40,910 nucleotides of DNA from Hyphomicrobiales bacterium (GTDB taxonomy: Bacteria; Pseudomonadota; Alphaproteobacteria; Rhizobiales; JAJFHB01). Both the position numbers and the translations under genes were made by a program. The stretch covers positions 1 through 40,910 of the forward strand of contig JAJFHL010000322.1 in the NCBI GenBank assembly GCA_021775615.1, given 5' to 3'. The notes beneath the pieces are model-generated. The model was not told the DNA's origin. It searched no databases and worked only from the letters and a program-made list of their open reading frames with translations. Of the stretch, positions 3,022 through 13,217 are shown piece by piece. Numbering within the stretch: position 1 is the first letter of the stretch; the number at the start of each line of letters is the position of its first letter.

Positions 3022-3522
3022 TCAATCGAACTTGTAGCTCGCGATCAGTTCCATGTCCTGATCTTCGTCGAGGATATCCTCCAGGGCAGGCACGAGGCCC
3101 ATCTCTTCCTTGTCAATATGTCCTCTCAGGCCGTCAACAAACTCACCGGCGACGGTACGAAACTCGGTCCAGCTTTCACCGGTGAACCCTTCTCCGCTCG
3201 CCGTACCCGCCAGATCTGCCAGACGCTGTCCGAGCGGCAGAAGAACAGTGTGCTCGCCTTTTAGAATGCCGGTCATGTCGTCCGCGCCCGCATCCTCCAG
3301 GATCGGGAACAGTGCCTTTTCTTCGAAGGCGAAGTGCTCCGTGATCTCGCTGTGTACCGCCGCCTTGAGATCACTCAGCAGCATACGGGTCGCAGGCTGG
3401 CTGCCGTCCGGCGGCGCGTCCGCCGGTTGCTCCATTACAAACTGGTCGACCCGATCGAGCAGCGTCAGGGCCGCCATATGGTCTTCGTGCATTGCGCGGG
3501 CGGTCGCTCGGGCATATTCCAT
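3022..3522 (-). CDS. Hemerythrin HHE-domain protein
   Basis: A 166-aa four-helix hemerythrin-type protein expected to bind a non-haem diiron site and through it O2, NO or similar ligands. Candidate ligands in order are His12/His15, His63, Glu67 (HFAFEE), His91, His135 and Glu139 (HIDKEE), which is the H-HxxxE-H-HxxxE pattern of the family. There is no extra sensor or membrane domain. It is the last gene of the minus-strand run, 36 bp after the ferredoxin gene and probably in the same transcript as the benzoyl-CoA reductase. Such a place suggests O2 scavenging or sensing to protect the reductase and its ferredoxin. That role is inference; iron storage or NO binding are alternatives. Confidence 0.85.
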   Translation of the reverse strand: MEYARATARAMHEDHMAALTLLDRVDQFVMEQPADAPPDGSQPATRMLLSDLKAAVHSEITEHFAFEEKALFPILEDAGADDMTGILKGEHTVLLPLGQRLADLAGTASGEGFTGESWTEFRTVAGEFVDGLRGHIDKEEMGLVPALEDILDEDQDMELIASYKFD

Positions 3523-3558: not shown

Positions 3559-3807
3559 TCAGCCGTGCAGCTGATCGTATTTCTCCTGCAGCTGCTCAGG
3601 AGCTTCCACCCAGTCCGGATCGGGAATGATGCACTCCATTTCCGGGCACACCAGCGCACATTGCGGTTCGTCATCGGCGCCGACACATTCGGTGCATTTG
3701 AACGGATCGATGCGGTAGATCGGGTCGCCAACAGAGATCGCTTCGTTCGGACAGACCGGTTCACAGGCGTCGCAGGCGGTACAGTTGGCCATGATGATGA
3801 GTGCCAT
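3559..3807 (-). CDS. 2[4Fe-4S] ferredoxin, Alvin type, electron donor to benzoyl-CoA reductase
   Basis: An 82-aa ferredoxin with two cluster motifs: C9-x2-C12-x2-C15-x3-C19-P and C38-x2-C41-x8-C50-x3-C54-P. The eight-residue insert between the second and third Cys of the second motif, and the acidic tail after it, are marks of the Allochromatium vinosum (Alvin) type. These have very low and unequal cluster potentials. Ferredoxins of this type donate electrons to class I benzoyl-CoA reductase in Thauera and are encoded beside it (badB in Rhodopseudomonas). The gene lies 18 bp after bcrD and 36 bp before the hemerythrin gene. The 2-oxoacid:ferredoxin oxidoreductase in the divergent operon is the likely source of its electrons. 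Confidence 0.92.
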   Translation of the reverse strand: MALIIMANCTACDACEPVCPNEAISVGDPIYRIDPFKCTECVGADDEPQCALVCPEMECIIPDPDWVEAPEQLQEKYDQLHG

Positions 3808-3825
3808 GTTCTCCTCCTCGAGAGT

Positions 3826-4668
3826 TCACGACGCCATGGGCAGGGCGTCGAGTTGCTTGAGTTTTTCGTGCCGGAACGCGGCCCACAGCGCAGCGCCGAT
3901 GGCGCCCGCATAGATCGATTGCGGATCGCTCCTGACGTCGAGCGACGTACCCTTCTGATCGAGTTCTTCACGGAGCGCCGCGAGCAGTCCCTCGTCATGC
4001 GCGAGACCTCCGGTCACCATGACCACGCCGTCCGACACCTTGATCGCCTTGATCAGGCGCGCCAGGCGGCCGGCCATGGAAAGGTGAATGCCCTTCAGGA
4101 TGTTCTGGGCACTGATCCCGCGCGACACCATGTTGATGACATCGGTTTCCGCCAGCACCGCGCAGATGCCGCTGACTTTCTCCGGATCGTCGGCCTCGCA
4201 GGAGAGCGGTCCGATTTCATCCTGGGCGATGCCGAGATATCGGGCGATGTTTTCCAGAAACTGACCCGACCCGGACGCGCACTGGCTGGTCATCTTGTAA
4301 GTCAGGACCTTGCCGCGCGGGTCCGTCGAAATCGCACGGCCGTGCAGCGCACCGACATCGAGCACGGCGCGGCTTTCCGGTTCCAGATGGATGGCGCCGC
4401 GGGCATGGGTGGTCATCGAATAGAAGTGTCCGGTATGGAACGGCACGGTCTCACCCTCGCCGGTCGTCGCCACATAGGCGACATCGTCGCGGGCGAGACC
4501 TGCCTCGGCCAGACAGTCCTCATAGGCCTCTTCGGCCAGTTGCAGCGGGTCGCGCTGGCGCACCCGCAGAACCTGCCTTGCGAGCCATTCGGGGCCGTCG
4601 TCGCGCACGTCGAACAGAACCGCCTTGACCGCACCGGTCCCTACATCCACGCCTGCGGTAATGGTCAT
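3826..4668 (-). CDS. bcrD: Benzoyl-CoA reductase, ATPase subunit delta (BcrD/BadG)
   Basis: A 280-aa member of the BcrA/D-BadF/G ATPase family (ASKHA fold), close to the known BcrD length of about 280. With BcrA it forms the electron-activating module that binds ATP and one bridging [4Fe-4S] cluster and pushes low-potential electrons to the BcrBC ring-reducing module. The N-terminal phosphate-binding loop reads DVGTGAVK. Cluster ligands are predicted to be Cys130 (in CASGSGQF) and Cys169 (in GICAVLAE). They are 39 residues apart, the same spacing as in BcrA here and in the 2-hydroxyglutaryl-CoA dehydratase activator. A second glycine-rich nucleotide motif VTGG and the C-terminal SIYAGAIGAA follow. 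It lies 13 bp after bcrA. Confidence 0.94.
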   Translation of the reverse strand: MTITAGVDVGTGAVKAVLFDVRDDGPEWLARQVLRVRQRDPLQLAEEAYEDCLAEAGLARDDVAYVATTGEGETVPFHTGHFYSMTTHARGAIHLEPESRAVLDVGALHGRAISTDPRGKVLTYKMTSQCASGSGQFLENIARYLGIAQDEIGPLSCEADDPEKVSGICAVLAETDVINMVSRGISAQNILKGIHLSMAGRLARLIKAIKVSDGVVMVTGGLAHDEGLLAALREELDQKGTSLDVRSDPQSIYAGAIGAALWAAFRHEKLKQLDALPMAS

Positions 4669-4681
4669 GATCAGCCCTCCT

Positions 4682-5995
4682 TCAGTTGACCGCCCGGCGG
4701 GCGAATGTCGCCGCGCCGAGCGCGCCGGTGTAGATCGATTCCGGATTGATGTTGATGGTGACGTCGCCGTAGTTCTCGACCACCAGCTTGCGCAATTCGC
4801 GCACCGCCGCTTCGTTCTTGGCGACGCCGCCGGTGAAGGTGAACTGGTCGGAAATGCCCCCCGAACGCGAGATGATCGACATGGCGCGCAGGATGATTGC
4901 CCGGTGCAGGCCGGCGAGAATGTCCTCGCGCTTTTCGCCCAGGGCGAGACGGTCGCGCAGCTCGGCGCCGGCGAAGACGGTGCATGTCGAATTGATGCGC
5001 ACCGAACGGGTCGACTTCATGGCCATGGGCCCAAGCTCATGCAGCCCCATCTTCATTTCATCGGCGATGTAGCCGAGATAGCGGCCGCAGCCGGCGGCAC
5101 AGCGGTCGTTCATCTGGAAATTCTCGACGATGCCTTCCGGATCGACCTGAATGCCCTTGGTGTCCTGGCCGCCGATATCGAGCACCGTGCGGGTGTCGGG
5201 ATACATCATGTGGGCGCCGAGCCCGTGGCACAGGATCTCGGAGCGGATGTGCTCCTTGGAGAACGGCAGGGTGACGCGTCCGTACCCGGTGCCCACCAGA
5301 TAGGCCTCTTCGAGATCGACGCCGAGCGCCGACTTGACGGCACGCTCCACCGTTGCGGCATCGACGCCGAACTCCGGCGCCTCATTGACCAGCTCTTCCA
5401 GCGAACGCAGGAACTTGCCGCTCATGTCCTCCGATGGCGGCCGGTTTTCGACCTCGATAATCGACTTGTCATAGACATTGAGCAACAGGTCGTAGGACAG
5501 GCCCGCCTGTTTCGCGAGGTCCTCGGCGACGGCCAGATAGCGCGACCCGGCAATGTCGCGGAAGAAATCCGAGCGGCGTTCGGCATTCGGCCCGTAGATC
5601 TCGGCCGCCTCGTCGCGCAGCTTTGAGAACACCGCCTCGAGCACGTCCGTGACCGCCGATTCCTGACCGGCAAAACGGTCGCCGTCGATGTGGTCGATGC
5701 AGGTCTGCTCGAGATCGCGGAGCTGCTCCAGGAACTGTTCGCGGCGGAACCCCAGCTCCAGGCGGGTGAGGAAATCGTCGAGCCGCCCGGCCAGTTCCGG
5801 CACGTCGTCCTTGAGCGCCCGCCGGCACAAGGTGAGCCGCGCATCGATGATCGCTTCGAGCTTCGCGACACGGGTCGCCGTGTCGTAGTTGGAACGCGAG
5901 TTGGTGATGCCGCGGCCGATGACGTCCGCATTGTCGTCGAGCAGGACGGCTTTTGTCGTGGTCGAGCCGAGATCGATACCGATGAAGGTTTTCAT
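4682..5995 (-). CDS. bcrA: Benzoyl-CoA reductase, ATPase subunit alpha (BcrA/BadF)
   Basis: A 437-aa ATPase subunit of class I benzoyl-CoA reductase, matching the longer BcrA/BadF form (about 438 aa) rather than the roughly 300-aa BzdP/BzdQ forms, which places the enzyme in the Thauera/Rhodopseudomonas subclass. The N-terminal loop reads DLGSTTTK. A long helical insertion spans about residues 40-230, then come DIGGQDTK, the first cluster Cys299 in CAAGCGRYL, the second, Cys338 in [10 protein letters not shown] (39 residues later), and the TFTGGVAKN nucleotide motif. ATP hydrolysis here drives electron transfer to the BcrBC module. The start overlaps the bcrB stop by 4 bp (ATGA), so translation is probably coupled. 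No frameshift or lost motif is visible. Confidence 0.95.
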
Positions 5996-7311
5996 GCCGC
6001 CGCTCCCTTCACGCCGGCCCGCTTCTGGTCAACCATCTGGAAGTAGCTTTCCATCCGGTTCTTGATATTGGCGGCGGAGAAATAGCGCGGATCGACAAGA
6101 TCGCTCTCGACGAAGGCCGCCGGCTTGCCGGTGCGCTTTTCGACCTCGCGCATGATCAGGAGCTGGCCGGCGGAGAAGCTGTTGCACGACTTGATCGAAT
6201 TGATCAGAAGGCCGTCGGCTTCATACTCGTTGACATAGTCGACCAGCATGTCGACGCGCTGCGGCAGGCTGCGGTTGGTGTAGACGCCGAGGCAGTACTC
6301 CGCGAGGCTTTCGAGCGGGCGCTCGGGGTCATGGCGGAAACCGAAGTCATAGACCCCGCCCACCTTGGTGTAGCTCGAAGCGACCACAACGGCGCCCTCG
6401 TCGTAGAACATCTTCCAGAAGTCGCGGAAGCTGGTGTAGTTGGGGGGACCTTCGGTGACGAGGCGGTATTTCTCCTCACCCATGTCGCCCTCCGGCGTCA
6501 CCGGGCCTCGGCCATTGTCGAGCCGGTCCTGGACCTCGGCGCGCAGGGTTCTGTAATAGTCGATGGCATCGTCGGTGCCGCGGAAGGCGCCGAAGATCGG
6601 CCCGATATAGTAGATGCCGCCGAAATAGGCATCGATCGGCGAGGGCTTGTTCTTGGCCGACTGCAACACGTAAACAAGGTCGTCCTCCGCCACAGCCGAG
6701 CGCTTGAGGTTCTCGCGTAGCCGGTCGATGTCGAATTTGACCCCGCTCACCCTCTCAAGTTTGGGGATCACTTCTTCTTTCAGCTGCTTGACCATGTAGT
6801 TGCGCATGTTCTCGGTCACCCAACCGTCGCCCTCGTAAGGGGTGTGCAGCATGATGGTTTCGCACTGATACTGCTCGCGCAGGAGTTCGAACCACTTCAT
6901 GAAGGTGAAGCATCCGGTATAGGAAAGCAGCAGCACATCGGGGCTCGGCAGGGGTTTGCCGTTGGGCGCCAGGTTGCCCATGGCCATCATGCCGATGTCC
7001 GATTTGACGTAGGTGCAGACGTCCTCGGAATGGCCGAGTTTTTCCGATTCCATCACATACCGCCCGCTCTTCTTGCGCAGTCCGTTCTGGATGGCGTTGA
7101 CCTCGGGCAGGTTGTTGGCGAAGTCGAAACACATGATCAGCTCGTTGAGGTTGCCGGGCACGAAAGTGGCGCAGACCTTCTCGCCGCGCTCGGTTGCGCT
7201 TGTCAGGCGGTCGTAGTGACCCGCCATCATGGCCTTCTGTTTGAGCATGGACTCGTCTTTGACGGCGTCCTTGGCGGGACGTTCGGCGCGCGATGTGGTG
7301 ATTTCGGTCAT
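5992..7311 (-). CDS. bcrB: Benzoyl-CoA reductase, ring-reducing subunit beta (BcrB/BadE)
   Basis: A 439-aa member of the 2-hydroxyacyl-CoA dehydratase D family (HgdB/BcrB/BadE). With BcrC it binds benzoyl-CoA and two [4Fe-4S] clusters and catalyses reduction of the aromatic ring to a cyclohexadienoyl-CoA. Cysteines in the conserved contexts are Cys99 ([11 protein letters not shown]), Cys134 (SYTGCFTF) and Cys376 ([11 protein letters not shown]), suitable cluster ligands. The frame opens at 7323, but I place the start at 7311. There the ATG overlaps the bcrC stop in the usual ATGA arrangement and GGAG lies a few bases upstream. The order bcrC-bcrB-bcrA-bcrD is the same as in Thauera and as badDEFG. 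Confidence 0.95.
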
Positions 7312-8477
7312 GCTTCGCTCCACAGTTTGATCGAGTCGGCGAAGGTGCCGGCCTGTTCGCGGATCGGCTGCATCTGGCCGGAGTTTTCGGCGTACTTGAA
7401 TGCGATGTAGGGGATGTTCTTATCGGCCAGCACATGCTGCAGCATGGGCCGGTCTAGAAGGGCGGGGTCGCAGAAGCTCGGCGAGGCGAAGATCACGCCT
7501 TCCGCGCCGTACTTCTCCACCGACCGAACCAGATGCTGGCCCTTTTCCTTGAGATCGGGTTCGTACTTCGCCGCCGTGCTTTCTGAATGATGCAGGAAAG
7601 CGTCGGCCAGATTGCCCAGGGGATCACCGTCAATCGGCACGTCGCCGAGGAGCCAGCGGGTGACGAGAAGCAGATCGTCGTCGACGATGTAGCAGCCCGA
7701 CAGCTCGATCGACTTGATCAGGTTGAGGGGCGGCTGTTCGCAGAACAGGCCGGTCACGACAACCCGGCAATTGTCACGCATCGGCCGGTCTTCGTGGCGC
7801 ACGGCGGCCAGCCAGTCCTGCATCATCTGCGAGTGCTCCTCGACCGGCAGCACCAGGCCGGCGCGGATCAGGAGATAGACGTCCGAGGCCGGCGCCTTCC
7901 AGGGCTCAAGCGCGCGGAATTCATAGACCTCGCGCACCAGCCGGCGATTTTCGTTGTAGATGGCGATCGAGCGGCGCAGCGCCTCGTCGGTGATCTTGAC
8001 GCCGCAATGGTCCTCAAGCCCCTCACAAAGTTCTTTGAGTTCGGCCTTGTAGTAGTTGCCGCCGATGTCGTCGGCGTAGTTCTGCGGCACGTCGAAATAA
8101 CGCGAATAGACGTCCGGAAACATCAGCTTCCACATGCCAGACAGATTGCGGATCACATCGCAGATCGAGGGAAACAGCATGCCGTCGACGAAGTCGAGCC
8201 GGCCGCTGACGCCGAGCTCTATGGTCGAGCGCGGGATGCGGCAGATGTAGCTCTGATAATAGGCATCGCCGTGGATGACTTCGAGCTGATCTCCACCGCC
8301 GACGATGCCGAGCGGCAACATGCCGCCGGCATGAAGGATCTCGCGCGGCACGTAGATCGGCATGTAGCCGATCACCTTGCGGCCAGGTTCCGCCGCCTTC
8401 CATTCGCGCGCGGCGGTGAAGTCGAGGTCTTCGTAGAGCTGCTGGCAGCGATCGATGATGTCCTTGGAATTTTTCAT
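7308..8477 (-). CDS. bcrC: Benzoyl-CoA reductase, subunit gamma (BcrC/BadD)
   Basis: A 389-aa protein of the same dehydratase D family as BcrB, with the length expected of BcrC (about 390). It is the second half of the ring-reducing module. Cysteines in conserved contexts are Cys79 (SYICRIPR), Cys106 (FPSICDVIR) and Cys336 (SPSFCDPALLD). The segment near residues 30-70, with GYMPIYVPREILHAGGMLPLGI, is the typical N-terminal signature of this family. It is the first gene of the operon. The start ATG at 8477 is preceded by a purine-rich stretch (AAGGCGGG) and by a 132-bp divergent promoter region shared with the kor genes. Confidence 0.95.
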   Translation of the reverse strand: MKNSKDIIDRCQQLYEDLDFTAAREWKAAEPGRKVIGYMPIYVPREILHAGGMLPLGIVGGGDQLEVIHGDAYYQSYICRIPRSTIELGVSGRLDFVDGMLFPSICDVIRNLSGMWKLMFPDVYSRYFDVPQNYADDIGGNYYKAELKELCEGLEDHCGVKITDEALRRSIAIYNENRRLVREVYEFRALEPWKAPASDVYLLIRAGLVLPVEEHSQMMQDWLAAVRHEDRPMRDNCRVVVTGLFCEQPPLNLIKSIELSGCYIVDDDLLLVTRWLLGDVPIDGDPLGNLADAFLHHSESTAAKYEPDLKEKGQHLVRSVEKYGAEGVIFASPSFCDPALLDRPMLQHVLADKNIPYIAFKYAENSGQMQPIREQAGTFADSIKLWSEA

Positions 8478-8548
8478 GGCCCGCCTTGCTCCCTTGCGGC
8501 TGTAACGCTCGGTCCCCGGTGCGTCGTTCTCACGCAGTTTTGGCTGCC

Positions 8549-8575
8549 TTGACAGCGGCTCGTTTTTGCTATTAT
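8549..8575 (+). promoter_or_regulatory. Candidate sigma-70-type promoter for the kor operon
   Basis: A perfect TTGACA -35 element (8549-8554) is followed after 15 bp by TATTAT (8570-8575), five of six to the -10 consensus. The spacer is shorter than the ideal 17, so the promoter may be weak or activator-dependent. Transcription would begin near 8582, ahead of korA. Confidence 0.45.
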
Positions 8576-8581
8576 CGTAAA

Positions 8582-8610
8582 ATCGTACTGAAATACTAAT
8601 TTAAGGTCAA
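8582..8610 (-). promoter_or_regulatory. Candidate sigma-70-type promoter for the bcr operon
   Basis: On the minus strand TTGACC (8610-8605) is separated by exactly 17 bp from TACGAT (8587-8582). These match five of six and four of six of the -35 and -10 consensus. The expected leader to the bcrC start at 8477 is about 100 nt. A direct repeat of ATCGTA (8574-8579 and 8582-8587, 8 bp apart) overlaps this -10 element and could be bound by a regulator. No FNR-type TTGA-N6-TCAA site is visible in the interval. Confidence 0.42.
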
Positions 8611-8663
8611 TGCAGAGATTATGCGACCTTTTGGCACGCAGGTCGGACGCACCGAAAAGTGAG

Positions 8664-10403
8664 ATGACGCAAAGACAAGGTCAGCCCACAAGCATTTCCA
8701 TCGCCCTTACAGGAAGCGGCGGCGCCGGGGTGATGACAGCCGGCGGTCTGCTGCTCGATGCCGCCGGCAAAGCGGGCCTTTATGGACTACAGACCCGCTC
8801 CGTCGGGCCGCAGATCAGGGGCGGCGAGGCAGCTGCCCTGCTTCGTCTCGCCGACTGGCCGGTTGAAACCCACAGCGGCGCGTTCGATCTGCTGCTCGCG
8901 CTCGACTGGAGCAACTTCTCCCGGTTTGCGGCGGAGATAAAACTTGACGCCCGGTCCGTCGTGATCGCCGATCCCGTGTCCGGGACGGTGCCCGAAATTG
9001 TGACCGCCGCAACGCAGAACATTGTCGAGCTGCCGATCAAGGAGATCGCCGACAACATCTCCGGCGGGCGCGTTAACATGGTCGCCCTCGGACTGCTGTG
9101 CGGTGCCATCGGGCTCCACGAAGCGGATCTCATCGAGTTGATCGCGGGCAAACTCGTCGCCAAGGGCGCCTCTGCCATAGAGGCTGGCACCGCCTGCCTG
9201 CACGAAGGCTTTCAGCATTCAACGCGGCTCGATGCCGTTACCGCCATCGGCCCCGAGCGGCGACAAACTGGCGAGCGCCGCTGGCTGCTGACCGGCAACG
9301 AGGCCGCCGGGCTCGGCGCCCTGCGCGGCGGGGTGCGCTTCGCCGCCGCCTATCCCATCACTCCGGCCACCGAGATCCTTGAATGGCTTGCCCCGGCCCT
9401 GGCGCGCGCCGGCGGCACACTGGTGCAGGCGGAGGACGAGCTTGCCTCGGTCAACATGATCATCGGCGCATCCTACGGCGGCGTGCCCGCCCTGACCGCC
9501 ACGTCGGGGCCGGGGCTGGCTCTGATGACCGAGTCCATCGGCCTGGCAACCGCGGCCGAGGTGCCGATTGTGGTGATCGACGTGATGCGCGGCGGCCCGT
9601 CGACCGGCATTCCGACAAAATCCGAACAGTCCGATCTCAACATTGCCGTGCACGGGCTGCATGGCGACGCGCCGCATCTGGTCGTGGCGCCGGTGTCTCT
9701 GGCCGATTGTCTTTTCACCACTCAATGGGCGGTCCACCTCGCTGAAGCCATGCAGGCGCCGGCCATCGTTCTCTCCGATCAGTTCCTCGGCCAGGCACGG
9801 ATGATCGTCGACCGGCCGGCCGATATCGCCTTCGTGGCCGCACGCCGGCGCACCGAGAATCCCGACGATGATTATGCACGATATGCGCTGACCCCCGACG
9901 GCATCTCACCCATGTCGGTCCCAGGTGTCGCCGGCGGGCAGTACACCGCAGACGGCCTGGCCCATGCGGTTTCCGGCACCCCGTCCTCCGCCGCCGAAGA
10001 TCATTTGGCACAGCTTGCCAAGAGGCGCAGAAAGATCGACGAGTTTGTCTATGGCGACCACTGGGCCGATATCGAAGGCGATGGCGACTTCGTCATCGTG
10101 ACCTGGGGCTCGACGGCAGCGCCAGTGCGTGAGGCCGCCGAACAGGCCCGCGCACACGGGCTCCATATCAAGACCGTCGCCGTGCGTCTGTTGGCGCCGC
10201 TCAAAGTTGCTGCGCTCGCGCACGAGCTTGACGGTGCGCGCCGCGTTCTCGTTGTCGAGCAGAACGAGACCGGTCAGTTTCACCGCTACCTGCGCAGCCT
10301 GTGCGACCTGCCCGCCGACACGCGGGCGGTACACCACCCCGGCCCCCTTTCGGTAACGCCCGATGAAGTTCTTGGCGAGATCCTCAAGGAGCACAGCTTA
10401 TGA
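8664..10403 (+). CDS. korA: 2-oxoacid (2-oxoglutarate):ferredoxin oxidoreductase, fused gamma-alpha subunit (KorA)
   Basis: Oxidises a 2-oxoacid, most likely 2-oxoglutarate, to the acyl-CoA and reduces ferredoxin. The 579-aa protein is a fusion: a gamma domain at about residues 8-180 (GSGGAGVMTAGGLL, then VGPQIRGGEA) joined to an alpha domain with the YPITP motif beginning at Tyr230. A C-terminal domain binding the partner follows at about 460-575. The size (about 60 kDa) and the two-gene layout agree with the two-subunit enzyme of Thauera aromatica, which supplies reduced ferredoxin to benzoyl-CoA reductase. The frame is open from an ATG at 8610; the extra 18 residues look non-conserved and overlap the bcr promoter, so I prefer 8664, though neither start has a strong ribosome-binding site. 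It overlaps korB by 4 bp. Confidence 0.9.
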   Translation: MTQRQGQPTSISIALTGSGGAGVMTAGGLLLDAAGKAGLYGLQTRSVGPQIRGGEAAALLRLADWPVETHSGAFDLLLALDWSNFSRFAAEIKLDARSVVIADPVSGTVPEIVTAATQNIVELPIKEIADNISGGRVNMVALGLLCGAIGLHEADLIELIAGKLVAKGASAIEAGTACLHEGFQHSTRLDAVTAIGPERRQTGERRWLLTGNEAAGLGALRGGVRFAAAYPITPATEILEWLAPALARAGGTLVQAEDELASVNMIIGASYGGVPALTATSGPGLALMTESIGLATAAEVPIVVIDVMRGGPSTGIPTKSEQSDLNIAVHGLHGDAPHLVVAPVSLADCLFTTQWAVHLAEAMQAPAIVLSDQFLGQARMIVDRPADIAFVAARRRTENPDDDYARYALTPDGISPMSVPGVAGGQYTADGLAHAVSGTPSSAAEDHLAQLAKRRRKIDEFVYGDHWADIEGDGDFVIVTWGSTAAPVREAAEQARAHGLHIKTVAVRLLAPLKVAALAHELDGARRVLVVEQNETGQFHRYLRSLCDLPADTRAVHHPGPLSVTPDEVLGEILKEHSL

Positions 10404-11227
10404 ACGCCCCGGTTTCGCTCAAGGCGAGCGACTACAAGTCGGACCTCAAACCGGTCTGGTGTCCGGGATGCGGCGATTATCACGTCCTCCTCGCGGTAAC
10501 AAAGGCGCTCGCCGAGCTGCAGCGTCCGGCCCATGACATTGCCGTCATCTCCGGCATCGGCTGTTCGTCTCGGATTCCCGCCTATCTTAACGCCTACGGG
10601 TTCCACGGCGTACACGGCCGCGCCCTGCCGCTCGGCACCGGCCTCAAGGTCGCCCGCCCCGAGCTAACAGTCCTTGTCGCCGGAGGCGACGGCGACGGCT
10701 TTTCCATCGGCGGCAACCATTTTCTGCATGCCTGCCGCCGCAACATCGACATCACGTATCTGGTCATGGACAACCAGGTCTACGGCATGACCAAGGGCCA
10801 GCCGTCGCCAACCACCGCGCCAGACTGGGACAGCGCCCTGTCGCCCGGCGGCACCGGCCTGCGCCCGTTTCATCCTTTGGTGATTGCCCTGGCGTCAGGT
10901 GCCAATTTCGTCGCCCGTACGTTTTCCGGCGACATCAAGGGCACCACCCAGACCCTGGTCGAGGCGATCCGGCATCCCGGCTTCTCCTTCGTCGAGGTCC
11001 TGAGCCCCTGCGTCACCTTCCGGCCGGAACAGCGCGAATGGAAATCGGCGGTGCATGCCGCACCGGTCACCCCCACCGACGACCCGGCGCGCGCCGCGCG
11101 GCGCATCATGACCGACGACGGGTTCAATACCGGGATCCTGTTTCGCGGCACCCGCGATCCCTACTCCCTCGCGCGGAGCGATACCGTCGCCGACATGACA
11201 GCGTTCGAAAGGCCCTTCGAGCTATGA
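10400..11227 (+). CDS. korB: 2-oxoacid (2-oxoglutarate):ferredoxin oxidoreductase, beta subunit (KorB)
   Basis: A 275-aa thiamine-diphosphate-binding subunit that also holds the electron-transferring [4Fe-4S] cluster. Cluster cysteines are Cys21 and Cys24 (WCPGCGDY), Cys55 (GIGCSSR) and Cys204 (SPCVTF). The thiamine-diphosphate motif begins at Gly96 (GDGDG) and runs to DNQVYGMTKGQ around residue 126. There is no extra ferredoxin domain, so an external ferredoxin is needed; the Alvin-type ferredoxin of the divergent operon is the obvious partner. ATGA overlaps couple it to korA upstream and to the rubrerythrin-like gene downstream. Substrate choice (2-oxoglutarate versus pyruvate or other 2-oxoacids) is inferred from the family and context. 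Confidence 0.92.
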   Translation: MNAPVSLKASDYKSDLKPVWCPGCGDYHVLLAVTKALAELQRPAHDIAVISGIGCSSRIPAYLNAYGFHGVHGRALPLGTGLKVARPELTVLVAGGDGDGFSIGGNHFLHACRRNIDITYLVMDNQVYGMTKGQPSPTTAPDWDSALSPGGTGLRPFHPLVIALASGANFVARTFSGDIKGTTQTLVEAIRHPGFSFVEVLSPCVTFRPEQREWKSAVHAAPVTPTDDPARAARRIMTDDGFNTGILFRGTRDPYSLARSDTVADMTAFERPFEL

Positions 11228-11760
11228 CCGGCAAACAGCCCAAGGTGCTGATATCCATCGAGACCGAGGCCGAACTTCTCGCCCACGCCCATGCCATCGA
11301 GCAGGACGCGCTGGAACGCTACCGCATGCTCGCCGACCAGATGGAAGCTCACAACAATCCGGTCCTGGCGGAGCTGTTTCGCGAACTTGCCAGTCACGAA
11401 GAAAAGCACGCGGCGGAGATCCTGTCTCGCGCCGGAAACATTGCACTGCCGGATCTCAGACCGAGCGAATTCAAGTGGCCCGGCGTAGATAGCCCGGAAT
11501 CCGCCGAACTCGACCTGGCGCACTACAAGATGACGCCCTGGCATGCCCTGCAGATGGCGTTGCGCGCCGAGCAGCGCGCCTTTGCCTTTTTCGACCACGT
11601 GGTCAATTCCGCAGGCGACCCGAACTTGAAGGCATGGGCGGAAGAGTTCCGGGACGAAGAGGCCGAACATGTGGAACTGGTCGAGCGGTTGCTCGAAAAA
11701 TACCCCGAACCCGAGCCCGGCTGGGACGAAGACGATGACCTGCCCGCATTGCAGGACTGA
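11224..11760 (+). CDS. Rubrerythrin-like ferritin-fold diiron protein
   Basis: A 178-aa protein with a ferritin-like four-helix diiron domain. Ligand pattern: Glu31 in helix 1, Glu59-x2-His62 in helix 2, Glu116 in helix 3 and Glu146-x2-His149 in helix 4. It lacks the rubredoxin Cys4 domain of true rubrerythrins, so any peroxidase cycle would need an outside electron donor. An insertion of about 40 residues separates the two helix pairs and the C-terminal tail is very acidic. The start used here overlaps the korB stop (ATGA); a longer open frame upstream lies wholly inside korB and is not credible. It likely removes H2O2 or O2 near the oxygen-sensitive Kor and Bcr enzymes. Confidence 0.87.
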   Translation: MTGKQPKVLISIETEAELLAHAHAIEQDALERYRMLADQMEAHNNPVLAELFRELASHEEKHAAEILSRAGNIALPDLRPSEFKWPGVDSPESAELDLAHYKMTPWHALQMALRAEQRAFAFFDHVVNSAGDPNLKAWAEEFRDEEAEHVELVERLLEKYPEPEPGWDEDDDLPALQD

Positions 11761-11778
11761 GCACAAGGGAGAGACGTG

Positions 11779-12192
11779 ATGGATGTTCTGCAGCCGGACG
11801 GCTGGGCGCAACCGGTCGGATACGCCAACGGCATATCCTGCGATGCCGGGCGGCTGGTGTTCATCGCCGGCCAGGTCGGTTGGACCGCGCAGCAGCGCTT
11901 TGAAAGCGAAGCCCTTGCGCCGCAGTTTGAACAGGCGCTGGCCAATGTCCTGACCGTGCTGGCCGAGGCCGGCGGAGGCCCGAGCGACATCTGCCGCATG
12001 ACCGTCTACTGCACCGACAAGCCCGCCTATCTCGCCGCCCGGCCCGATCTTGGCCGCATCTGGCGCAAGCATATGGGCCGCCACTTTCCGGCCATGAGCA
12101 TGATCTTCGTCTCCGACCTCCTCGACAGCCCCGGAATGGTCGAACTCGAAGCCACCGCAATTGTCGACCGGGACCGGAGACCATTGCAATGA
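11779..12192 (+). CDS. RidA/YjgF/UK114-superfamily protein, non-canonical
   Basis: A 137-aa single-domain protein of the trimeric RidA superfamily: DAGRLVFIAGQVGW near residues 22-35, the middle helix QFEQALANVLTVLAEAGG, and the C-terminal strand VELEATAIV. In RidA proper an Arg in the PARSxVEV segment binds the carboxylate of the imine substrate. The equivalent segment here reads PAMSMIFV, with Met106 in place of the Arg, so 2-aminoacrylate deaminase activity is doubtful and it probably belongs to another Rid subgroup. The ATG at 11779 follows AAGGGAGA well; a GTG directly before it is possible. Its stop overlaps the next gene by 4 bp. Its job in this operon is unknown. Confidence 0.82.
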   Translation: MDVLQPDGWAQPVGYANGISCDAGRLVFIAGQVGWTAQQRFESEALAPQFEQALANVLTVLAEAGGGPSDICRMTVYCTDKPAYLAARPDLGRIWRKHMGRHFPAMSMIFVSDLLDSPGMVELEATAIVDRDRRPLQ

Positions 12193-13217
12193 AGGCGGTT
12201 GTCCTGGAGGAGCGCGGCGAAGCCGGTCTCCGTGTCGGCGCGTTCGACGACCCCAGGCCGCGCGCCGGCGAAGCGGTCATGAAGGTCAAGGCCGGCGCCA
12301 TCAACCGCATTGATCTTTACATGCGCGACAGCGGCAAGGGCATCACCCACGAATTGCCCATGGTGCTCGGCGTCGACGGCGCCGGCGAAATCGTCGAGGC
12401 ACCCAAGGAATCGGCCCTCAAGTCCGGAGACCCGGTCATTTTGTATCCCATGGCCTATTGCGGCCGCTGTCCCGCCTGCATCCGGGGCGATCATCCCAAT
12501 TGCATCAGGTTCGACATCTGCGGCGAGACCCGGCACGGCACCTTCGCTGAATACATCGCCATGCCGGAAAAGTGTTATGTGCCCATGCCGGACGGTCTCG
12601 ACTGGCAGGCGGCGGCGGCACTGCCGGTCGCCTATCTCACCGCCTGGCGCATGATGTTCGGCAAGGATCCGCTGCGCCCGTTCGAAACCGTGCTCATCAT
12701 GGGTGTGGGAGGCGGCGTGTCGGCGGCCTGTCTGCAGATGGCCAAGATGATCGGCGCCACCGCCATCGTCACCTCGTCGACCGGTGAAAAGCTCAAGCGA
12801 GCCCGCCAGCTCGGCGCCGACCATGGCATCAACTACCGCGACGACCCGGTCGCCCGCCAGGTCATGGAACTGACCGCCGGCCGCGGCGTGGATATGGTGA
12901 TCGACAATGTCGGCGAGGCAAGCTGGAAGGAGTCGCTAAGATCAGTGCGGGCCGGAGGCCGCATCGTCACCTGCGGCGCCACAACCGGCGGGCACCCTTC
13001 CGCCGACATCCAGCGCCTCTTCGCCCGCCAGATCGCCATCTACGGATCGACGCTGGGAAGCATGGACGAGTTCCGCCAGCTTCTCGACGTCGCCGCCCGC
13101 GGCGCGATCGCCCCGGTGATCGACCAAAGCTTCGCCATGGACGACATCGCATCCGGCTTCGGACGCATGGAAAGGTCAGAGCAGCGCGGCAAACTGGTTG
13201 TCGACATTACGGCATGA
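12189..13217 (+). CDS. Zinc-binding MDR-family dehydrogenase/reductase
   Basis: A 342-aa medium-chain dehydrogenase/reductase: GroES-like N-terminal domain, then a Rossmann fold with GVGGGVSAACLQMAK near residue 177 for NAD(P)H. The structural-zinc set is present (Cys91, 94, 97, 105). The catalytic-zinc ligands are not: Asn39 stands where the first Cys would be, and GVDGAGE has Asp63 where alcohol dehydrogenases have GHE. It is thus closer to quinone oxidoreductase or enoyl reductase-like MDRs than to 6-hydroxycyclohexenoyl-CoA dehydrogenase (Had), which would be the attractive guess here. It overlaps the RidA-like gene by 4 bp and closes the kor operon. It may reduce an enone, quinone or acyl-CoA intermediate; the substrate is unknown. 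Confidence 0.85.
   Translation: MKAVVLEERGEAGLRVGAFDDPRPRAGEAVMKVKAGAINRIDLYMRDSGKGITHELPMVLGVDGAGEIVEAPKESALKSGDPVILYPMAYCGRCPACIRGDHPNCIRFDICGETRHGTFAEYIAMPEKCYVPMPDGLDWQAAAALPVAYLTAWRMMFGKDPLRPFETVLIMGVGGGVSAACLQMAKMIGATAIVTSSTGEKLKRARQLGADHGINYRDDPVARQVMELTAGRGVDMVIDNVGEASWKESLRSVRAGGRIVTCGATTGGHPSADIQRLFARQIAIYGSTLGSMDEFRQLLDVAARGAIAPVIDQSFAMDDIASGFGRMERSEQRGKLVVDITA

Follow-up and report, generated by a model that had tools for sequence, protein, structure and literature searches.

What takes over the reduced ring after an ATP-dependent benzoyl-CoA reductase (BCR) when the genes that usually stand beside its operon are missing? The question is raised by the operon bcrC-bcrB-bcrA-bcrD-ferredoxin at positions 3559-8477 of a 40,910-nucleotide stretch of DNA from a Hyphomicrobiales bacterium (contig JAJFHL010000322.1, assembly GCA_021775615.1). 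We call this whole stretch the window; it is one entire contig (C249) of a 6.26-Mb assembly of 392 contigs that is 96.65% complete. The reading we put forward, with a probability of roughly 0.8, is that the lineage has kept a working BCR, has lost had-oah-dch, and uses a Rhodopseudomonas-type route instead, and that at least three lineages of Alphaproteobacteria made this replacement independently of one another. The bcr operon in itself is an ordinary member of a known family; the new element is the recurrence, in three lineages, of a lost had-oah-dch block alongside a Bad-type route. No description of such a repeated replacement was found in the open-licence literature searched, and the main text of PMC3794298 makes no mention of palustris or badI.

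All five genes lie on the minus strand. The catalytic-dimer partner subunit is encoded by bcrC (7308-8477, 389 amino acids; 718 bits with TIGR02263, cutoff 421), followed by bcrB (5992-7311, 439 amino acids from the ATG at 7311; 848 bits with TIGR02260, cutoff 487), the two ATPase/activator genes bcrA (4682-5995, 437 amino acids; 765 bits with TIGR02259, cutoff 578) and bcrD (3826-4668, 280 amino acids; 453 bits with TIGR02261, cutoff 313), and a 2[4Fe-4S] ferredoxin gene of the YfhL family (3559-3807, 82 amino acids; 113 bits with NF033683, cutoff 86). The pairs bcrC/bcrB and bcrB/bcrA overlap by 4 bp, and gaps of 13 bp and 18 bp separate bcrA from bcrD and bcrD from the ferredoxin gene. A first-pass annotation of this DNA had described the operon as complete, intact, and tightly packed, with subunits of 439, 437, 389, and 280 residues, and the open reading frames for BcrB, BcrA, BcrC, and BcrD and for the ferredoxin bear out both the packing and the lengths. 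The cysteine pairs that it reported 39 residues apart in both ATPase subunits are also where it placed them, and they are invariant among aligned relatives (BcrA Cys299/Cys338, kept in 56/56 and 55/55; BcrD Cys130/Cys169, kept in 54/54 and 54/54). BcrB aligns as a homologue of the active-site subunits BzdO and MbdO, and its Cys99, Cys134, and Cys376, kept in 56/56 relatives, align with BzdO Cys95, Cys128, and Cys380, which an excerpt of PMC11971306 gives as ligands of the catalytic cluster. BcrC matches MbdN and BzdN, and a profile search found a single copy of BcrA over the cutoff in the genome.

Judged from its sequence, the operon is one for a BCR-type, not a Bzd-type, class I ATP-dependent benzoyl-CoA reductase. 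All four Bcr subunits pass their NCBIfam equivalog cutoffs, and the window subunits fall so far below those of the Bzd-type models (BzdN 123/454, BzdO 61/449, and BzdQ 140/380 bits) and of the dehydratases that the BCR identity is well beyond chance. The alternative that the operon encodes a paralogue acting on non-aromatic substrates, for instance a 2-hydroxyacyl-CoA dehydratase, which would have the superfamily and the activator cysteine spacing in common with it, can be dismissed: the (R)-2-hydroxyacyl-CoA dehydratase models stay far under their cutoffs (HadB 160/750 and HadC 198/700 bits), while the four Bcr cutoffs are all exceeded. The first-pass annotation had named a dehydratase affiliation as what would overturn its identification; the family models exclude that affiliation, and our tree (below) held only Bcr proteins. 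It had also assigned the enzyme to a Thauera/Rhodopseudomonas subclass rather than the Bzd subclass, of which the BCR-type half is upheld by the family models, whereas the joint label merges two downstream routes. The operon resembles BzdNOPQ of Aromatoleum sp. CIB in superfamily and catalytic-cluster ligands but not in its model scores. Among PDB sequences, the best matches come from the 3-methylbenzoyl-CoA reductase MbdNOPQ (9g87 for both BcrB and BcrC, 9gai for BcrA), but at only about 200 bits per subunit it would belong to another subgroup.

What sets the window apart is the site upstream of bcrC. BcrB was found over its cutoff in 19/297 genomes of the order and 15/385 of the class, with the present genome counted in both, and named genomes, when scanned, yielded at least 505 relatives. 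The 80 best of these serve as the named loci, the nearest of them being L078, from a metagenome bin of Hyphomicrobiales (89% over BcrB). The usual layout in relatives is korB-korA divergent from had-oah-dch-bcrCBAD-fdx. The had, oah, and dch genes were named by family models in one such locus, L079 (Dch 407/292, Oah 665/464, and Had 566/339 bits), and the L079 proteins then served as tblastn queries for counting neighbors in the 62 of the 80 loci that were scorable, where bcrC is present with 3 kb or more of upstream sequence (18 were unscorable). In 56 of the 62, oah and dch lie upstream of bcrC, in 53 had does too, and in 46 there is a divergent korA upstream. The exceptions are L086, which retains had only, and L078, L115, L144, L151, and L153, which are without all three. 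Upstream of bcrC in the window there is likewise no had, oah, or dch match. The operon therein departs from the had-oah-dch-bcrCBAD-fdx clusters of Ruegeria marisrubri (L106) and Roseovarius amoyensis (L108), with which it shares the bcr order and close Bcr sequences; had, oah, and dch, the ancestral neighbors, would have been lost in the window lineage. The had-oah-dch lower pathway is the one known from Thauera.

The rest of the genome offers no Oah over the cutoff (best score 113 bits against 464, with no match at 1e-60). Among 18 of the 26 crotonases of the genome that were scanned, some only as the matched stretch, none matched the Dch model, which detects Dch in two controls; no genome-wide search for Dch or Had was made. 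The genome does encode a benzoate-CoA ligase on contig C40 (748 bits, cutoff 375), and contig C332 (locus L023) carries BadI (520.6 bits, cutoff 467.6), BadH, an Rrf2 regulator and GNAT proteins that are BadM- and BadL-like by their place, an FlK-type thioesterase, and a molybdenum oxidoreductase of three subunits. Because homologues of the C332 genes lie near bcr in three other genomes (G002, G133, and G023), where BadI is about 12 to 14 kb away from bcrB and the remaining homologues stand between or beside the two, C332 and the window contig are probably parts of one cluster.

We propose that KorAB, encoded beside the operon, would reduce a low-potential ferredoxin, that BcrAD would spend ATP to pass its electrons to BcrBC, and that BcrBC would reduce the ring of benzoyl-CoA, steps that we infer from their homologues. 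The reduced ring would then pass through a BadK-like hydratase, BadH, and BadI to pimelyl-CoA. Anaerobic growth on benzoate is plausible on these genomic grounds, because the ligase, KorAB, ferredoxin, BCR, BadH, BadI, and a BadK candidate are all present.

The nearest known counterpart is the BadDEFG/bad-ali system of Rhodopseudomonas palustris, for which R. pseudopalustris (L115) served as proxy. It has a BCR-type reductase whose BcrB is 79% identical to that of the window, and it shares BadH, BadI, BadC, BadM- and BadL-like genes, korAB, a ferritin-like gene, and the want of any Oah over the cutoff. The arrangement differs: in the window korAB diverges from bcr and badC comes after ridA, whereas the order in L115 is badC-bcrCBAD-ligase-fdx-korAB (excerpts of PMC9973337 also place korAB within the cluster in R. 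palustris BisB5 and BisA53). In the window genome, moreover, badHI and the ligase gene are on contigs other than that of bcr, and the Bcr proteins fall on a separate branch.

That separate branch argues for repeated replacement. We built a tree of concatenated BcrC, BcrB, BcrA, and BcrD (IQ-TREE, LG+G4, ultrafast bootstrap, midpoint root) from 56 bcr-positive genomes, of which G059, G599, and G606 each lacked one subunit. Thirty-three of these genomes came from the order and class samples, the present one included, and 23 were named loci that we picked; the picks are biased, as L086, L115, L144, L151, and L153 had already been seen without oah beside bcr, and the 33 sampled genomes are the fairer set. 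Oah-negative genomes with BadI and BadC fall at three positions. The first is the window clade (G000, the present genome, with G002, G133, G184, and G023), whose neighbors G103, G160, and G374 are Oah positive. In none of its five members, G023 with a completeness of 100% among them, does an Oah exceed the cutoff. The second is R. pseudopalustris (G689), with the Oah-positive sister G254, and the third is G683, with the Oah-positive sister G677, both at a support of 100. Three positions with Oah-positive sisters imply that the route was probably replaced at least three times. Four trees uniting the Oah-negative lineages, all together or in pairs, were rejected by the Kishino-Hasegawa and Shimodaira-Hasegawa tests (p = 0) and by the approximately unbiased test (p from about 4e-61 to 0.0016), the last run with fewer replicates than the program recommends.

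The third position may preserve a trace of the event. In L086, the bcr locus of G683, a full-length Had gene (67.5% protein identity to the L079 Had) is followed by a Dch remnant, a stretch of 23 codons that matches the final 27 residues of the protein (E = 2e-6); bcrC comes next. Its Had has DD for GG in the NAD-binding loop and GCGVCQSD where the other aligned Had rows have GCGVCHTD. From these residual sequences, L086 looks like a lineage after the loss of oah and most of dch.

Across the 56 genomes, Oah exceeds its cutoff in 40 and BadI its own in 12; BadI reaches 400 bits in 23. At the 400-bit level, BadI accompanies 14/16 Oah-negative and 9/40 Oah-positive genomes (Fisher p = 1.1e-5), and in the 33 sampled genomes, of which 11 (the present one included) are without Oah over the cutoff, 9/11 and 4/22 (p = 0.0007).

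Several points weigh against our reading. The 400-bit threshold was set by ourselves, the Fisher tests ignore shared ancestry, and at the curated BadI cutoff the association weakens, to 7/16 versus 5/40 in the 56 genomes (p = 0.026) and 5/11 versus 3/22 in the 33 (p = 0.08). Two Oah-negative genomes, G420 and G606, are without BadI at 400 bits, and seven more have BadI-like proteins (404 to 494 bits) but no BadC, so that our scheme leaves some cases unaccounted for. Within the window clade itself, the BadI of G184 scores 431 bits, under the cutoff. In the present genome, BadH passes only marginally (432.5 bits, cutoff 431.2), the BadK candidate shares 57% identity with the crotonase that occupies the badK place in L115 but is matched by a general enoyl-CoA hydratase model, and the assembly in which BadHI and the ligase sit apart from bcr is a fragmented one. 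As for L086, its Had still exceeds the Had cutoff (456/339 bits), and the genome is a metagenome bin, in which misassembly is possible. The Oah-negative bcr loci without BadC are L144, L151, L153, L163, L164, L167, L168, L169, and L202, in nine genomes.

One challenge to a replaced route is that BadH and BadI serve cyclohexanecarboxylate only, with the ring cleaved after BCR by some other, unrecognized enzyme or by an Oah that fell into an assembly gap. There is precedent in Aromatoleum sp. CIB, whose bad-ali genes serve cyclohexanecarboxylate and not benzoate (PMC9795900), and BadI at 400 bits or more also occurs in the 9 Oah-positive genomes counted above. Against this, all five genomes of the window clade are without Oah over the cutoff, one of them at 100% completeness, and in G002, G133, and G023 badHI lies in the bcr neighborhood along with BadL- and BadM-like genes. 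We consider this explanation improbable.

Granting the replaced route, one step needs an agent. Excerpts of PMC11971306 state that class I enzymes of denitrifiers form the 1,5-diene. For the R. palustris BCR, the product is given as the monoene in PMC9795900 and as the 1,5-diene in PMC6191541 and in excerpts of PMC9973337. Comparison of BcrABCD sites found no same new residue in all three Oah-negative lineages relative to their sisters, some columns having changed in two of the three, and the G683 subunits are 92 to 97% identical to those of the Oah-positive sister. With Bcr sequences so conserved, either the reductase over-reduces the diene in the absence of Dch, or a separate enzyme acts.

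The candidate for a separate enzyme is BadC, encoded at 12189-13217 on the plus strand, an MDR-family oxidoreductase with 49% identity to the R. pseudopalustris L115 protein at the badC position. BadC would use NAD(P)H to reduce cyclohexa-1,5-diene-1-carbonyl-CoA, the product usual for class I enzymes, to cyclohex-1-ene-1-carbonyl-CoA, the BadK substrate. This assignment, which we regard as doubtful, has in its favor that the three lineages gained no new Bcr residue in common and that the G683 subunits stay so close to those of its sister. At 44% identity or more, BadC occurs in 7/16 Oah-negative versus 2/40 Oah-positive genomes (Fisher p = 0.0012), or 5/11 versus 2/22 in the sampled genomes (p = 0.027), and its gene adjoins kor-bcr in the window clade and lies directly upstream of bcrC in R. 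pseudopalustris. The locus-tag order in excerpts of PMC6974649 puts R. palustris badC (rpa0656, "Alcohol dehydrogenase") between badR and badD, with a value of 6.82 in an expression table.

The gene is not tied to BCR, however. In the order sample, with at most seven candidates scored per genome, 8/294 genomes have BadC at 48% identity or more, five of them the window clade and three (G188, G030, and G187) without a BcrB match; in these three bcr-negative genomes badC lies within a few kilobases of badH, and two of them have badI as well. In G683 it is not near bcr, and it is missing from seven Oah-negative genomes whose BadI reaches 400 bits. We have accordingly lowered the strong claim that badC marks the switch, given its place beside badH in bcr-negative genomes.

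The structure of BadC speaks for both sides. BadC is without the Cys/His pair of Had, with Asn39 at the Had cysteine position and Val or Ile at the histidine position in all nine aligned BadC proteins, and the window protein retains the Cys lobe of the structural zinc. Its AlphaFold model (mean predicted local distance difference test score, 90.7) has as its closest PDB match 2eih, an alcohol dehydrogenase by title, and as its sixth AibC, described in excerpts of PMC5004256 as a 3,3-dimethylacrylyl-CoA (DMA-CoA) reductase. AibC retains its zinc ligands, so their loss is no proof of a reductase, and we dropped that argument. The fuller proposal is that badC encodes a dienoyl-CoA reductase joining an unchanged BCR to BadK-BadH-BadI and that gain of badC and badHI allowed the loss of dch-had-oah independently in the window clade, Rhodopseudomonas, and the L086 lineage; this scenario we hold to be unlikely.

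The explanation of the diene step that survives best, at somewhat less than even odds, is that the diene, when Dch is no longer there to take it away, undergoes a second two-electron reduction on the reductase itself, which would yield monoenoyl-CoA with no need of a further enzyme. In excerpts of PMC4992971, extracts of T. aromatica are reported to have given 1-monoenoyl-CoA as a side product, ascribed to reduction of dienoyl-CoA, and the monoene reported for the R. palustris BCR in PMC9795900 would fit as well. Such over-reduction would also work in the lineages without BadC. It would, on the other hand, carry an extra ATP cost, and the site comparison found no Bcr change common to all three lineages.

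Returning to the window, the operon is flanked by genes that recur in relatives. The divergent bcr/kor intergenic region (8478-8663) is non-coding DNA conserved in five loci, in which a promoter scan found promoter-like hexamers on both strands in numbers not above chance. On its far side, on the plus strand, lie korA, a 2-oxoacid:ferredoxin oxidoreductase gamma-alpha fusion (8664-10403; 541 bits with TIGR03710, cutoff 483), and korB, the beta subunit (10400-11227; 260.9 bits with the PorB_KorB model TIGR02177, just below the cutoff of 261.9). An ATG at 8610 falls inside the conserved non-coding sequence, which suggests that korA starts at about 8664 and not there. Then follow, also on the plus strand, a ferritin-like protein with a Pfam Rubrerythrin domain (11221-11760), found behind korB in many relatives, and, ahead of badC, a RidA-family protein (11776-12192; Pfam PF01042). 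Beyond the ferredoxin gene, on the minus strand, is a hemerythrin HHE protein (3022-3522; PF01814), which follows the ferredoxin gene here and in close relatives (L211, L212, and L214). The ferritin-like and hemerythrin genes recur by kor/bcr in many relatives and perhaps serve in oxygen protection. Near the left end of the contig, a copper amine oxidase with AGAO-like domains (24-1937) adjoins an FNR-type regulator (1992-2783). The contig also carries mnmE-, mnmG-, and leuS-type genes and ParA- and ParB-like reading frames (named by eye), which fit the alphaproteobacterial chromosome proposed by the first-pass annotation; a BcrA search of plasmids gave partial matches only, all below 60% identity.

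Two other clusters in the genome may concern aromatic compounds. On C332, positions 1319-6028 of L023 encode molybdopterin oxidoreductase subunits of 910, 215, and 290 amino acids and the FlK-type thioesterase. The large subunit occurs in 45/56 bcr-positive genomes, and in the order sample, with at most three candidates scored per genome, all 12 carriers (of 294 genomes) are also bcr positive. The 910-amino-acid protein was set aside as a missing ring-pathway enzyme in view of its PaaK- and Pad-like neighbors elsewhere (a PaaK-like protein at 584 bits, under the cutoff of 646, and PadE, PadG, PadH, and PadI over their cutoffs in L256). Most likely the protein is a phenylacetyl-CoA oxidoreductase resembling PadB; none of the family models run on it matched for such an enzyme. 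The PaaK- and Pad-like neighbors point to phenylacetyl-CoA oxidation feeding benzoyl-CoA. On contig C117, the genome that carries the bcr operon also has an aerobic aryl-CoA cluster, locus L025 (4471-12155), where a salicylyl-CoA 5-hydroxylase (1305 bits, cutoff 1078) is accompanied by a ligase, a crotonase, and a RidA-like reading frame (by eye).

According to PMC9795900, R. palustris has a hydratase, a dehydrogenase, and a ring-cleaving hydrolase unlike those of the BamR/BamQ/BamA kind. If our reading is true, R. palustris is not the sole exception: at least two further alphaproteobacterial lineages have switched, one of them with a possible deletion scar, and together they would serve as natural replicates in deciding which enzyme, the reductase or some other, forms monoenoyl-CoA. 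Surveys of anaerobic ring cleavage that use bamA/oah as the marker would miss such organisms: of the sampled bcr-positive genomes, 11/33, the present one included, are without Oah over the cutoff.

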